A stretch of DNA of 64,000 bases from Parahoeflea halophila (GTDB taxonomy: Bacteria > Pseudomonadota > Alphaproteobacteria > Rhizobiales > Rhizobiaceae): contig NZ_OCPC01000001.1 of NCBI RefSeq assembly GCF_900220985.1, forward strand, positions 908,836-972,835, given 5' to 3'. Positions 2,550-15,566 of this stretch are shown here, in pieces (the stretch's first letter is position 1; each line of letters starts with the position of its first letter). Both the position numbers and the translations under genes were made by a program. Under the pieces are notes generated by a model. That model saw only the letters and a list, made by a program, of their open reading frames with translations, was not told where the DNA came from and searched no databases.

Positions 2550-3230
2550 TCACCACGCGAGCAGGGAGCCATCCCAGTTGTAAAACTGCCCGGTGCCTTC
2601 AAGCGTCAGGTTCTCTGCGAGCTTGAGGATGCCGGCTGCACTTTCAACCGGGGCGATATCGGCCCCTGCCCCGCCCATGTCGGTCCGGACCCAGCCCGGA
2701 TGCAGGCTGGCCACTGCGATCCCCATCGGCGCGAGGTCGGTAGCAAGACCCTGCATCACCTTGTTCACCGCCGCCTTCGACGCCCTGTAGGCAATCCGGT
2801 CGGACTTGGCATGGGACAGGCTGCCCATCCACGACGAGACGGTAAGAATGCGCGGATTGGCGCTGCGCCTGAGATGCGGCAGGAAGGCCTGACTCACTGC
2901 CAGCGGCGCCAGCGTGTTGACGCCAAGCGTCTTGGCGAATCCGTCAAAATCCATTTCCAGCACCGATTGCCGGTCCGGCCCGATGATGCCGGCATTGTTG
3001 ATCAGGACATCGATCGGCGCGTCGATCCCGGCCGCGGCCTGGCGCAGCGCCGCATGACCGGTGACATCAAACCGCAGGTCATGAAACCGCGGATGTTCGC
3101 AGATATGAGCATCCGGACCGGTAGCCTCTTCCCGTGCCGAGCCGTAGACCGTCCAGCCCTTGGCCAGTGCCTGCTTAGCCATCTCCAGCCCGATGCCGCG
3201 ATTGGTCCCGGTGATGAGAATGTTGGTCAT
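2550..3230 (-). CDS. short-chain dehydrogenase/reductase (SDR)
   Basis: This 226-residue enzyme has the classical SDR layout. The N-terminal nucleotide motif is T-G-x-N-R-G-I-G-L (residues 7-15). It is followed by N-N-A-G near residue 85, the catalytic serine in T-V-S-S-W-M-G around 130, and Y-R-A-S-K (Tyr/Lys pair) near 147. It is short, with the C-terminal P-G-W-V-R-T-D-M-G motif of the C-factor-like single-domain SDRs. It should catalyse NAD(P)-dependent reduction or oxidation of an unknown carbonyl or alcohol substrate in the cytoplasm. It is unrelated in sequence detail to the second SDR at 42189. The start at 3230 is a standard ATG. No operon partner is evident. Confidence 0.85.
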   Translation of the reverse strand: MTNILITGTNRGIGLEMAKQALAKGWTVYGSAREEATGPDAHICEHPRFHDLRFDVTGHAALRQAAAGIDAPIDVLINNAGIIGPDRQSVLEMDFDGFAKTLGVNTLAPLAVSQAFLPHLRRSANPRILTVSSWMGSLSHAKSDRIAYRASKAAVNKVMQGLATDLAPMGIAVASLHPGWVRTDMGGAGADIAPVESAAGILKLAENLTLEGTGQFYNWDGSLLAW

Positions 3231-5274: not shown

Positions 5275-6924
<1,650 letters not shown>

Positions 6925-12635: not shown

Positions 12636-14296
12636 AAACCGGCGGTCAGCTGATAGTCGACACTCTCAAGGCCAATGGCGTCGAGCGCCTGTTCTGCGTG
12701 CCGGGCGAAAGCTATCTCGCCGTCCTCGATGCGCTGGTGGATTCCGGCGTCGGCGTCACGGTCTGCCGCCAGGAAGGCGGTGCTGCGATGATGGCCGATT
12801 GCTGGGGGCGTTTGACCGGCAAGCCCGGCATCTGCTTTGTCACCCGCGGCCCCGGTGCCACCAACGCCACCGCCGGCCTGCACATCGCCCGGCAGGATTC
12901 GATCCCGATGATCCTGTTCATCGGCCAGGTCCAGCGCGACGCCCGCGAACGCGAGGCCTTTCAGGAGGTCGAGTATCGCCGCGCCTTTACCGAATTCGCC
13001 AAATGGGTCGGCGAGATCGACGATCCGGCACGCATCCCGGAATTCGTCAACCGCGCCTTCTCTGTCGCCATGTCCGGCCGCCCCGGCCCGGTGGTGCTGG
13101 CGCTGCCCGAGGATGTGCTGCGCGAGGGTGTCGCCAACCCGCCCGCCGAGATCCATCCCAATCCGGTGCCCGCCATTCATCCCGGCGCTGCCGAGATGAA
13201 GGACCTTGCCAACCGGCTGTCAAACGCCGAGCGCCCGGTGATGATCCTCGGCGGCACTCGCTGGACCGGTCAGGCGGTGCGCCAGCTCGAACGCTTTGCC
13301 GAGCGGGCGCAGATCCCGGTCGGCTGCTCCTTCCGCCGCCAGATGCTGTTTGATCACCTGCACCCATGCTACGCCGGCGATGTCGGCATCGGCATCAACC
13401 CCGCCCTTGCGGACGAGATCAGGAATTCCGATCTGGTAATCCTTGCCGGCGGGCGCTTCTCGGAAATGCCGTCATCGGGCTACACCCTGCTCGATGTGCC
13501 GTTTCCGGCGCAGCAACTGGTCCACATCCACGCCGATGCCTCAGAGCTCGGCCGTGTCTACCGGCCCTCGCTCGCCATCAACGCCGACCCCGCCTCCTTC
13601 GCGGAGGCCCTGTCCGGTCTCGACGTAGAGACAACGCCGGAGCGCGCCGAACGGACCGCCCGAATGCACGGACAGTATCTCGACTGGTCGACGCCGCCCG
13701 AGAGTGGTCCCGGCGATGTCCACATGGGGCCGATCATCGACTGGCTGCGCGACCACCTGCCCGAGGATGCCATCCTGACCAACGGCGCCGGCAACTACGC
13801 CACCTGGGTGCACCGTTATGTCCGCTTCCGCAAATTCGCAACACAGGCAGCTCCCACATCGGGAACGATGGGCTACGGCGTGCCCGCCGCCGTCGCCGCC
13901 AAACAGGCCTTTCCGGAGCGGACCGTCGTGGCCTTTGCCGGCGACGGCTGTTTCATGATGCACGGCCAGGAATTCGCCACCGCCGTTCAGCACAAGCTGC
14001 CGATCATCGTCATCGTCGTCAACAATTCGATGTACGGCACCATCCGCATGCACCAGGAGCGCGATTACCCCGGCCGCGTCAGCGCCACCGAGTTGACCAA
14101 TCCCGATTTTGCAGCTCTTGCCCGGGCCTATGGCGGCCATGGCGAGACGGTGGAAACCACGGCTGACTTCAAAGCCGCCTTCGAGCGCGCCGAGGCCAGC
14201 GGCATCCCCGCAATCATCGAGATCAAGCTCGACCAGCAGGCCATCACCCCGACAAGGACGCTTGCCCAGATCTCGGGCACCGGCGTAAAACAATAG
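12632..14296 (+). CDS. thiamine-diphosphate-dependent enzyme (acetolactate synthase-like)
   Basis: A 554-residue three-domain ThDP enzyme. The catalytic Glu is in C-R-Q-E-G-G-A-A-M-M-A (residue ~50). A V-T-R-G-P-G-A-T-N segment follows. The central domain has an altered nucleotide site. The C-terminal ThDP motif G-D-G-C-F-M-M-x(15-20)-V-V-N-N-S is complete. It resembles acetolactate synthase large subunits, but no small regulatory subunit is adjacent. Its ATG lies inside the CoA-transferase stop, a pairing that mirrors frc/oxc (formyl-CoA transferase/oxalyl-CoA decarboxylase). Family features point to a broader decarboxylase or ligase, so the oxalate role is only one hypothesis. Cytoplasmic. 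Confidence 0.85.
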   Translation: MKTGGQLIVDTLKANGVERLFCVPGESYLAVLDALVDSGVGVTVCRQEGGAAMMADCWGRLTGKPGICFVTRGPGATNATAGLHIARQDSIPMILFIGQVQRDAREREAFQEVEYRRAFTEFAKWVGEIDDPARIPEFVNRAFSVAMSGRPGPVVLALPEDVLREGVANPPAEIHPNPVPAIHPGAAEMKDLANRLSNAERPVMILGGTRWTGQAVRQLERFAERAQIPVGCSFRRQMLFDHLHPCYAGDVGIGINPALADEIRNSDLVILAGGRFSEMPSSGYTLLDVPFPAQQLVHIHADASELGRVYRPSLAINADPASFAEALSGLDVETTPERAERTARMHGQYLDWSTPPESGPGDVHMGPIIDWLRDHLPEDAILTNGAGNYATWVHRYVRFRKFATQAAPTSGTMGYGVPAAVAAKQAFPERTVVAFAGDGCFMMHGQEFATAVQHKLPIIVIVVNNSMYGTIRMHQERDYPGRVSATELTNPDFAALARAYGGHGETVETTADFKAAFERAEASGIPAIIEIKLDQQAITPTRTLAQISGTGVKQ

Positions 14297-14396
14297 GGCT
14301 GGATACTCCCCACCAGCCTCGTAGATGCCCACTTGGCAGGCATCCCTGCCCGTTGACAAATCCGGCTCTGACAACGCACGATGTCTTCTGTGCGCA

Positions 14397-14729
14397 TTAA
14401 TGCGGCTCCTGATCGCAATATTTCATGCACTGATCGTAACCGGCCGCGGCCGCTTCCAGGCAAGCCGGAGCAAGATGCGGGGCCATGAGCGAGCAAGCTG
14501 CAGCCGCACCTACAGCGGCCGTACCGCAAGCAACCTGACACGCAGTCGAAGCCCGCTTGCTGACACTCTCAAAGATCATCTGACTGTCGAGCTTCTCGGC
14601 ATCCGCACTGGCCTTGATCGTATCATGGGGACCTATTCCGCCGGACTCCCTCAAGGTCTTCGTTACCAGGCTTTTCTCCTGAGCAGTAAGAGGTTCCCAC
14701 ACCTCATTATTCACCAGTATTTCAGCCAT
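14397..14729 (-). CDS. six-cysteine small protein, bacteriocin- or peptide-like, unknown function
   Basis: A 110-residue protein preceded by a strong GGGGGG ribosome binding site 4 bases before the ATG. Residues 1-60 are polar and leader-like (V-N-N-E-V-W-E-P-L-T-A-Q-E-K). Residues 61-110 form an Ala-rich segment with six cysteines in the pattern C-x3-C-x10-C-x10-C-x10-C-x3-C and a final polar tail. That plan (polar leader, Ala/Cys-rich hydrophobic core) recalls halocin C8-like peptides or other disulfide-stabilised helical hairpins, but I cannot name the family. No signal peptide, maturation enzyme or immunity gene is recognised nearby. An FNR/FixK box upstream indicates oxygen-responsive control. 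Confidence 0.6.
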   Translation of the reverse strand: MAEILVNNEVWEPLTAQEKSLVTKTLRESGGIGPHDTIKASADAEKLDSQMIFESVSKRASTACQVACGTAAVGAAAACSLMAPHLAPACLEAAAAGYDQCMKYCDQEPH

Positions 14730-14759
14730 ATTACCCCCCTTTTTTCGCGAAACAACTGC

Positions 14760-14800
14760 ATCATATTACATTCCGGAGCGCATACATTGATGTAAATCAA
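14760..14800 (-). promoter_or_regulatory. FNR/FixK-type promoter for the six-cysteine gene
   Basis: TTGAT-GTAA-ATCAA at 14787-14800 is an exact match to the FNR/FixK consensus TTGAT-N4-ATCAA. Reading leftwards, a TATGAT hexamer (14765-14760) would place the start of transcription near 14753. The box centre would then lie about 41 bases upstream, the class II activator position. The gene starts at 14729. The alternative rightward reading gives only a 61-codon frame at 14819 with the box too close. The whole 14730-15152 interval is otherwise without a convincing gene and is richer in A+T than its surroundings. Confidence 0.65.
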
Positions 14801-15152
14801 ACAAAGTTCTGCCTGGCCATGTCGCAGTTCGTGACAATTAAAGGTCATCAATCGGACACATCGCCTGAATCTGCAATTGCATCAGCCTTGTCTTGGAAGG
14901 ATGGCATCATGGAAAAGAGTAACAGCTTGATGGATTCTGCGTTCCGTGAAGAGGTACTGGCATCCATACGTTTTCGGCACCGGGGCCCGAAGAGCGAAAA
15001 ATGAAGTCAGGGGTCGCCATCGGTACGCCGGCAATCCTCGATCAGGCGACCACTCCGCCGCTCAGATTATGGCAGGCGGCATTGGGGCTAAGAAACGGGC
15101 ATGTCGGACTTGCCGCACTTGTTCTGGCGACTGTGCGCGCCAGATATCAAGC

Positions 15153-15566
15153 ATGATGTCACCCGCCGAACCATCCGCCCTGTCTGTCTGGTACGACGGC
15201 GACTGCCCGGTTTGCCGGCAGGAAGTCGCGCTCTACAACCGCATCGACCGCAATAAGCTGATCAGCTGGATCGACATCGTTGCCCTCGCCGACAACGAGT
15301 TGCCGGCGGGCAAGACCCGTGAGGATCTGCTCGGCAAGTTCCATGCCCGCGCCACGGGCGGTCGCTGGCAGATCGGCGTCGACGCCTTCGCCGCCATCTG
15401 GCAGCGGCTGCCGGTGCTGAAATGGTTCGCCTTTGTCTTCCGCCTGCCCGTCATCCGGCAAGTCGCCCAGATCGCCTATCTTGGATTTCTCAAGTGGCAG
15501 CGCCATCACCGCGCCCGGCGAACTGGCGCCACGGCTGCAGTCGAAACGCCCGAACTACGGACCTGA
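15153..15566 (+). CDS. DCC-family thiol-disulfide oxidoreductase-like protein (DUF393)
   Basis: A 137-residue protein with the N-terminal W-Y-D-G-D-C-P-V-C signature of the DCC family (D-x-x-C-x-x-C; here Cys-Pro-Val-Cys at residues ~17-20). It also has the downstream I-G-V-D-A-F-A-A-I-W segment and a short hydrophobic C-terminal region (W-F-A-F-V-F-R-L-P). The family is thioredoxin-like by fold prediction, but no substrate is established. A double ATG occurs at 15153/15156. This copy is not next to an HTTM gene, unlike the second DCC gene at 21074. Its location is probably cytoplasmic or membrane-associated. Confidence 0.82.
   Translation: MMSPAEPSALSVWYDGDCPVCRQEVALYNRIDRNKLISWIDIVALADNELPAGKTREDLLGKFHARATGGRWQIGVDAFAAIWQRLPVLKWFAFVFRLPVIRQVAQIAYLGFLKWQRHHRARRTGATAAVETPELRT

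Follow-up and report, generated by a model that had tools for sequence, protein, structure and literature searches.

We conclude that a short gene of Parahoeflea halophila encodes a member of a real protein family that has no match to any described one in the libraries searched, and whose function is unproven. The gene lies in the window, by which we mean the whole 64-kb stretch of DNA that was analyzed. The family is sporadic and mobile. In most of its aligned members, six cysteines with mirrored spacing fall on what is predicted to be an antiparallel helical hairpin, and in this host the gene is preceded by an exact FNR/FixK-type box. Our leading reading, which we hold tentatively, is that the product is an exported, mobile orphan protein whose six-Cys hairpin would be stapled by disulfides outside the cytoplasm and which might act as an antagonistic peptide.

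The ORF (14729 to 14397, minus strand) encodes 110 residues with exactly six cysteines, at positions 64, 68, 79, 90, 101 and 105, and has an Ala-rich C-terminal half. The intervals between the cysteines are 3-10-10-10-3. A sequence-only reading of this DNA had described such a protein behind a strong ribosome binding site, and the ORF confirms its length, cysteine spacing and composition; the gene exists as proposed, a Shine-Dalgarno-like run is present, and we add the strand, which had not been stated (Table 1). Mirror-symmetric spacing occurs in 0.4% of random placements when six cysteines are drawn in 44 positions. Because the spacing is rare at random and is also conserved in homologues, the ORF is a real gene and not a chance ORF. 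The gene is single-copy in the host genome.

Table 1. Features of the six-Cys gene and its surroundings (window positions)
Feature	Position	Strand	Basis
Six-cysteine protein gene, 110 aa, stop codon included	14397..14729	-	ORF; homologues in same frame
Codons 3-41, conserved N-terminal domain, predicted beta-alpha-beta	14607..14723	-	AlphaFold2 E3-7 H8-11 H16-29 E37-41; alignment
Codons 63-106, predicted six-Cys antiparallel helical hairpin, C64 C68 C79 / C90 C101 C105	14412..14543	-	AlphaFold2 H63-80 H87-106; conserved Cys
Shine-Dalgarno-like GGGGGG, 4 nt before ATG	14734..14739	-	sequence
-10 element TATGAT	14760..14765	-	sequence; 21 bp after box
FNR/FixK-type box TTGATGTAAATCAA, palindromic half-sites	14787..14800	.	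exact match; spacing to -10
Divergent 61-aa ORF, probably not a gene or species-specific	14819..15004	+	no Pfam/NCBIfam match; found in 1/151 genomes, its own
Islet of ~0.8 kb between TPP-enzyme gene and DCC1-like gene	14297..15152	.	missing from 5 congeners, in which the TPP and DCC1-like genes adjoin

The family is nearly invisible to single-sequence searches and was recovered by leader-based searching. The earlier statement that no described family fits holds for Pfam, NCBIfam, PHROGs, PADLOC and the PDB, none of which gave a significant match. With the window protein as query, Pfam (E up to 1), NCBIfam, PDB sequences and PADLOC returned nothing, and PHROGs a single weak match (E 0.22). Its five aligned relatives had no NCBIfam match either. 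At E up to 10, NCBIfam gave none for any of the six aligned members, halocin C8-like models included if present (the library presumably includes a halocin C8 model). Pfam returned three sub-threshold matches for the six, each to one member (best E 0.06), and PADLOC matched none of them. In a narrow search of open-licence papers we found no paper on six-cysteine hairpin bacteriocins or on halocin C8 in Proteobacteria, and no matching described family in the literature on CX3C helical hairpins.

Searches with the window protein itself found little. No credible copy beyond its own genome was seen in 101 genomes, including 17 others of the genus, and scans of genome contigs and viral contigs gave none. 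Three weak genome matches (L003-L005, E 0.005-0.01) have 4, 11 and 3 cysteines, lack a six-Cys core and look unrelated; one contains CXXCH. A profile (A1) scored over 385 genomes of the class gave 17 others (E 0.0019-0.044), and no six-Cys pattern is present in their loci on either strand.

When plasmids were searched by tblastn, three weak matches to the N-terminus came up (E 0.09-0.2). Each falls at the beginning of an annotated hypothetical protein that has six cysteines, arranged alike, in its C-terminal part. One of these proteins is encoded by a plasmid of Paracoccus sp. Arc7-R13 (L018, WP_127900028.1); the other (L019/L020, WP_262518475.1) is shared by two pAt1 plasmids of A. tumefaciens. 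An N-terminal DNA pattern without Cys codons picked out 15 stretches among genome contigs; one is a true member with six cysteines, from Marinobacter halodurans, and the other 14 were rejected on translation. The single viral match of a similar DNA pattern was unrelated, and a stricter DNA pattern had no match. A scan with the Marinobacter protein turned up one phage protein, present on two contigs (L060/L061); further scans of viral contigs gave nothing beyond these two, or none.

Profiles of four or six rows added one member in the host's family (G1192; 1 other of 394 genomes) and one in the host's order (G1339; 1 other of 299 genomes), figures that, like all family occurrence figures here, are a lower bound because genomes were sampled and limited candidates were scored in each. 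Profile A2, scored over 390 genomes of Marinobacter's order, returned Marinobacter halodurans itself only, and none of nine further genomes of G1192's genus has the gene. Four P. aeruginosa plasmid records carry a family copy. Decayed copies on large plasmids, at L040 ~6001-6144 and L041 ~3001-3144, are mostly unannotated; the one copy that was read is broken by frame changes and stops. In the G1339 copy (L065, match ~1498-1785), an in-frame TGA stands precisely where the codon for the first cysteine would be expected. Selenocysteine was considered there and rejected, as selA was not found in that genome (E. coli, one of the controls, did give a match), and the copy looks damaged and not like a selenoprotein gene.

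The cysteine pattern singled out in the sequence-only reading is kept in homologues. All six cysteines are present in five of the six alignment rows (the window protein included), as CX3C-X10-C-X9..11-C-X10-CX3C, and among these five rows only the loop between C3 and C4 varies in length (9-11). In the phage protein C2-C5 are kept, and just C1 and C6 are missing. In an antiparallel hairpin C1 and C6 would face each other at the open end, and their loss together, which is a single event, is as expected if the outermost cysteines are paired. Selection for cysteines played no part in finding four of the five six-Cys members: the window protein, the two plasmid proteins (leader matches) and the Marinobacter protein. 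The G1192 protein was found by a profile that includes the core, so its cysteines are not independent evidence. The N-terminal motif (V6, W11, E18, T23, L26, G30 and D36) is invariant in the first four members, the window protein included; the phage and G1192 members depart from it in part.

Alignment scores tie these proteins together in two ways. Full-length Smith-Waterman comparisons of the window protein with the Paracoccus, Marinobacter, Agrobacterium, phage and G1192 proteins gave z values of 20.1, 21.1, 17.4, 11.4 and 9.5, and in each case none of 500 shuffles reached the score. In the same order, z was 15.6, 12.0, 14.2, 13.3 and -1.2 for the leader alone and 4.9, 6.9, 6.9, 3.9 and 8.2 for the core alone. 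The phage core is weakly similar to the window core (2 of 500 shuffles reached its score). The G1192 relative joins the window protein via the core, because its leader and core z values are -1.2 and 8.2; against the Paracoccus and Marinobacter proteins it reaches z of about 20-22. Judged by eye, the G1192 protein begins with a Sec-like signal peptide that precedes the six-Cys core. The window protein and four of its five aligned relatives have no evident signal peptide. A double-glycine leader was considered and rejected: the second glycine of the pair in the window leader is not conserved in the six-row alignment.

The hairpin that had been suggested for the cysteines is also what AlphaFold2 predicts. 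The alignment input consisted of the window, Marinobacter and phage sequences, the same three for both queries. For the window protein (pLDDT 80.9, pTM 0.71) the model has a strand at 3-7, helices at 8-11 and 16-29, a strand at 37-41, a short helix at 49-56 and helices at 63-80 and 87-106. In the model the last two helices form an antiparallel hairpin with three cysteines on each. The Marinobacter query, ~30% identical to the window protein, gave the same topology (pLDDT 78.4, pTM 0.66). The N-terminal domain was modeled with at least the confidence of the core. When placed on an ideal helical wheel, the three cysteines of each helix lie within a 60-degree arc.

Neither Foldseek nor VIA-align 2 found a confident match to these models (no E <=0.001, no Z >=5). 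Tautomerase-type matches span both domains at Z below 4. We considered the match to 7vw1 (Z 3.7), a cuprous-ion-containing periplasmic protein, as a parallel for the cysteines and rejected it, since such copper binding goes via Met and His: according to a review, a dimeric periplasmic protein of that sort binds copper through these two residues (excerpt of PMC12292863), and we infer that 7vw1 is of the same kind.

The main rival to our reading is that the protein is a thiol-rich Cu(I)- or other soft-metal-binding protein. The facing cysteines of the hairpin would then hold Cu(I), which is favored at low oxygen, perhaps in a dimer that forms a four-helix bundle, and the FNR box could be a link to copper safety or to cuproenzyme supply. 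We think this unlikely. Copper storage (Csp) proteins were the most persistent weak structural match, and Csp1 and Csp3 resemble the window protein in being helical and CXXXC-bearing, with cysteines on facing helix surfaces; according to an excerpt of PMC5171941, Cu(I) in Csp3 is coordinated by helical CXXXC motifs. Members without a signal peptide are presumably cytosolic, and FixG is among the contexts of FNR boxes in the host. However, all of the Csp fold matches have E above 1 and Z below 5 (Z 2.5-3.4 for Csp1, Csp3 and Ccsp with the Marinobacter model, 2.2-2.8 with the window model), and unrelated chains score alike. For example, apo-Csp1 tops the Foldseek list for the Marinobacter model (E 1.7, prob 0.41, 26% identity over 43 columns) and is tied with two unrelated chains. 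No Csp sequence was found in the PDB at E up to 10 with profile A3 or with the Marinobacter protein. The same excerpt describes Csp3s as four-helix-bundle monomers with 18-19 cysteines, whereas the window protein has six mirror-spaced cysteines in two long C-terminal helices, plus a beta-alpha-beta domain. The mirror spacing and the loss of C1 with C6 suit pairwise cross-links at least as well, and no copper gene was recognized by eye among the ORFs of window positions 10-20 kb or by Pfam on the TPP and DCC1 neighbors.

The islet carries the six-Cys gene together with its promoter. Ten congener loci were compared. In five of them (L010, L011, L012, L014 and L017) the gap between the TPP and DCC1 matches is 7-89 bp, versus 814-892 bp in the window; the other five have no TPP-gene match in the stretch examined. 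Third-position GC is 58.6% in the six-Cys gene versus 81.6% in the neighboring TPP gene, a sign of foreign codon use. We regard the gene as mobile and horizontally acquired because of the plasmids, the phage contig, the islet and this codon use.

The surroundings of the relatives are varied. A tape-measure gene lies downstream of the family member on the phage contig, and the G1192 gene comes after a TldD-type gene. The Marinobacter member, on a 4.6-kb contig, is ~270 bp upstream of a PAAR-motif protein (L050 3649-4494) that has a sub-threshold Tle1-like match and lies at the contig end. On the Paracoccus plasmid a second small Cys protein (74 aa, CX3C-X10-CX3C; L018 1375-1599, plus strand) is encoded directly upstream of the six-Cys gene. 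It has sub-threshold Pfam matches only and no Cys-bearing relative among plasmids, and the Sinorhizobium match that was examined does not have the Cys pattern. Near the Agrobacterium copy, L019 601-3739 encodes an OLD-like AAA ATPase beside a UvrD-type helicase, a pair that we take to resemble Gabija-type defence.

No neighbor is shared among the 725 ORFs of seven loci (all-against-all, E up to 0.001). The links that were found are the family gene, stretches antisense to it, and a single short G1192-window pair in the TPP-gene region (41% over 39 residues, E 1.7e-4) that is, in our view, a shadow-frame match. The Agrobacterium and phage copies both have membrane proteins nearby, which were considered as a shared partner and set aside as not convincingly related (E 0.018). 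Since no neighbor recurs in the seven loci, we see no dedicated maturation, transport or immunity partner, and the gene travels as an orphan.

This bears on a second rival, which partly overlaps our own reading and which we also consider improbable: that the protein is a dedicated bacteriocin precursor, with the N-terminal domain as a leader removed on export and the hairpin as the active toxin. A conserved leader before a Cys-rich and Ala-rich core, the accessory-genome location, the small Cys protein beside the Paracoccus gene and the PAAR protein beside the Marinobacter gene would all be in keeping with a precursor. However, the seven loci share no transporter, protease or immunity gene, and there is no conserved GG site after the leader. 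The prediction for the leader is a folded beta-alpha-beta domain, at a confidence no lower than that of the core, and the second Paracoccus peptide is without a Cys-bearing relative among plasmids.

Alternatively, the protein, borne by phages or plasmids, could act in host takeover, exclusion or regulation from inside the cell, with structural cysteines kept reduced. The phage-contig and plasmid locations and the lack of a signal peptide in most members would fit such a protein. We think it quite improbable: a relative with a Sec-like signal peptide exists, the PHROGs match is single and weak, phage records gave one match to the window protein (E 9) and none to the phage-contig protein, and none of the six members matched PADLOC.

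On the minus strand, going upstream from the ATG, the GGGGGG run (14739-14734) is followed by TATGAT (14765-14760) and then, 21 bp further, by the box, which reads TTGATTTACATCAA on this strand and TTGATGTAAATCAA on the plus strand. The distance from the center of the box to the predicted transcription start is ~41 bp, which is class II FNR spacing. For FNR-type regulators, TTGAT-N4-ATCAA and a near-optimal position 41.5 bp upstream of the start are documented (excerpt of PMC5398030). A related FnrN/FixK consensus is TTGANCNNGATCAANG (excerpt of PMC4999443), which the window box fits less well. The earlier proposal of an exact box ~41 bp from the expected start, with a TATGAT -10, thus fits a class II FNR/FixK promoter with a predicted start.

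The box is the sole site with 0-1 mismatch in the window. Shuffled windows are expected to have 1.23 sites at <=1 mismatch, so the bare motif in 64 kb is unsurprising. Genome-wide (4,185,998 bases) there are nine exact TTGAT-N4-ATCAA sites, versus none for a reversed control pattern, and among the 18 orientations of the nine sites the TATGAT of the six-Cys gene is the best -10 at 19-24 bp. Four of the eight other exact boxes adjoin plausible oxygen or redox genes (FixG, an MFS transporter/Crp-type regulator pair, a YgaP-like membrane protein and FMN reductase); by eye, the other four have no obvious oxygen-related gene alongside. The exact boxes at L077 1501-1514 and L073 1501-1514 lie between the MFS transporter gene and the divergent Crp-type regulator gene, and upstream of FixG. 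A consensus scan found no sigma-70 promoter with a -35 in 14250-15200; a missing -35 would suit an activator-dependent promoter, but this says little and carries little weight, with just 0.5 expected by chance.

A box shared by homologues, which the sequence-only reading had raised, was not found: an exact box is absent within 400 bp upstream of all six homologues, and two have one-mismatch sites, at 240 and 314 bp. Because the box is not conserved, oxygen control would be a feature of this host's promoter and not a property of the family. We consider low-oxygen control of the gene in this host likely but unproven. The arrangement shares with FNR/FixK class II promoters the TTGAT-N4-ATCAA palindrome near -41.5 of a predicted start, with a -10, and differs in that the box precedes an orphan acquired gene and is not kept in its relatives.

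It is very improbable that we are dealing with a spurious gene and a chance FNR-like palindrome: although the 17 other genomes of the genus have no credible copy and about one motif with at most one mismatch is expected per window, homologues with a conserved frame, leader and cysteines refute chance for the gene, and the box, -10 and Shine-Dalgarno are correctly spaced.

We return to the exported, cross-linked protein as our preferred reading. The protein would consist of a ~40-aa N-terminal beta-alpha-beta domain, a linker and a six-Cys alpha-hairpin (CX3CX10C-loop-CX10CX3C). Once outside the cytoplasm, the mirrored cysteines would most likely form three nested disulfides (C64-C105, C68-C101 and C79-C90), giving a small, Ala-rich stapled hairpin. 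Three nested cross-links are the simplest account of the mirrored cysteines, the length changes confined to the loop and the paired loss of C1 and C6. Judging from the Sec-like G1192 relative, the core may be able to function extracytoplasmically, and cross-links there would be disulfides; in the cytoplasm disulfides rarely last.

We postulate that the gene was picked up as orphan cargo by plasmids, phage and genomic islets, and that in this host it came under a class II promoter of FNR/FixK type, from which low-oxygen production would be expected. The patchy, mobile and fast-diverging distribution suggests an accessory, possibly antagonistic role. The most likely role would be that of an exported accessory peptide, with antagonism of neighbors as our leading guess. 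Against the exported reading, most members have no evident signal peptide, and cytoplasmic residence is therefore possible. The absence of a recurring immunity, maturation or export neighbor in the seven loci also counts against it.

The architecture, as predicted, is a variant of disulfide-stapled helical hairpins, and the family itself is unnamed in the libraries searched. The twin CX9C and CX3C proteins of mitochondria are disulfide-stapled helix-loop-helix proteins; they are alike in that respect and differ in spacing and kingdom, the sequence comparison being that made through Pfam. In microhalocins of the halocin C8 type, a longer N-terminal part is followed by a C-terminal core rich in Cys and Ala/Gly. 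The family here has a similar order of parts, with its Cys- and Ala-rich core at the C-terminus, and we take microhalocins to differ from it in the number and spacing of cysteines. Closest in design are the alpha-hairpinins, plant antimicrobial peptides with the motif CX3CX4-20CX3C, of which a six-Cys version, CX3CX3CX4-20CX3CX3C, exists (excerpt of PMC11591084). They share with the window protein two antiparallel helices (predicted here), mirror-placed cysteines and an outer CX3C. In contrast to the motif as given in that excerpt, the intervals here are 3-10-10-10-3, with X10 and not X3 in the middle. The family here also has a longer hairpin, a preceding beta-alpha-beta domain and bacterial hosts; its sequence was compared through Pfam and the PDB.

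We speculate that the family could be a bacterial disulfide-ladder alpha-hairpin family, unrelated in sequence to plant hairpinins, with a beta-alpha-beta delivery domain whose start is replaceable by a Sec signal. Such a family would be traded among plasmids, phages and secretion-effector loci and would serve as a low-oxygen weapon or signal in this host. This larger proposal is possible and rather doubtful. If it is true, the family would be a bacterial, mobile addition to the small set of disulfide-stapled helical-hairpin scaffolds, and a hairpin scaffold known from plant antimicrobial peptides would here be joined to a natural N-terminal domain and driven from an oxygen-responsive promoter.
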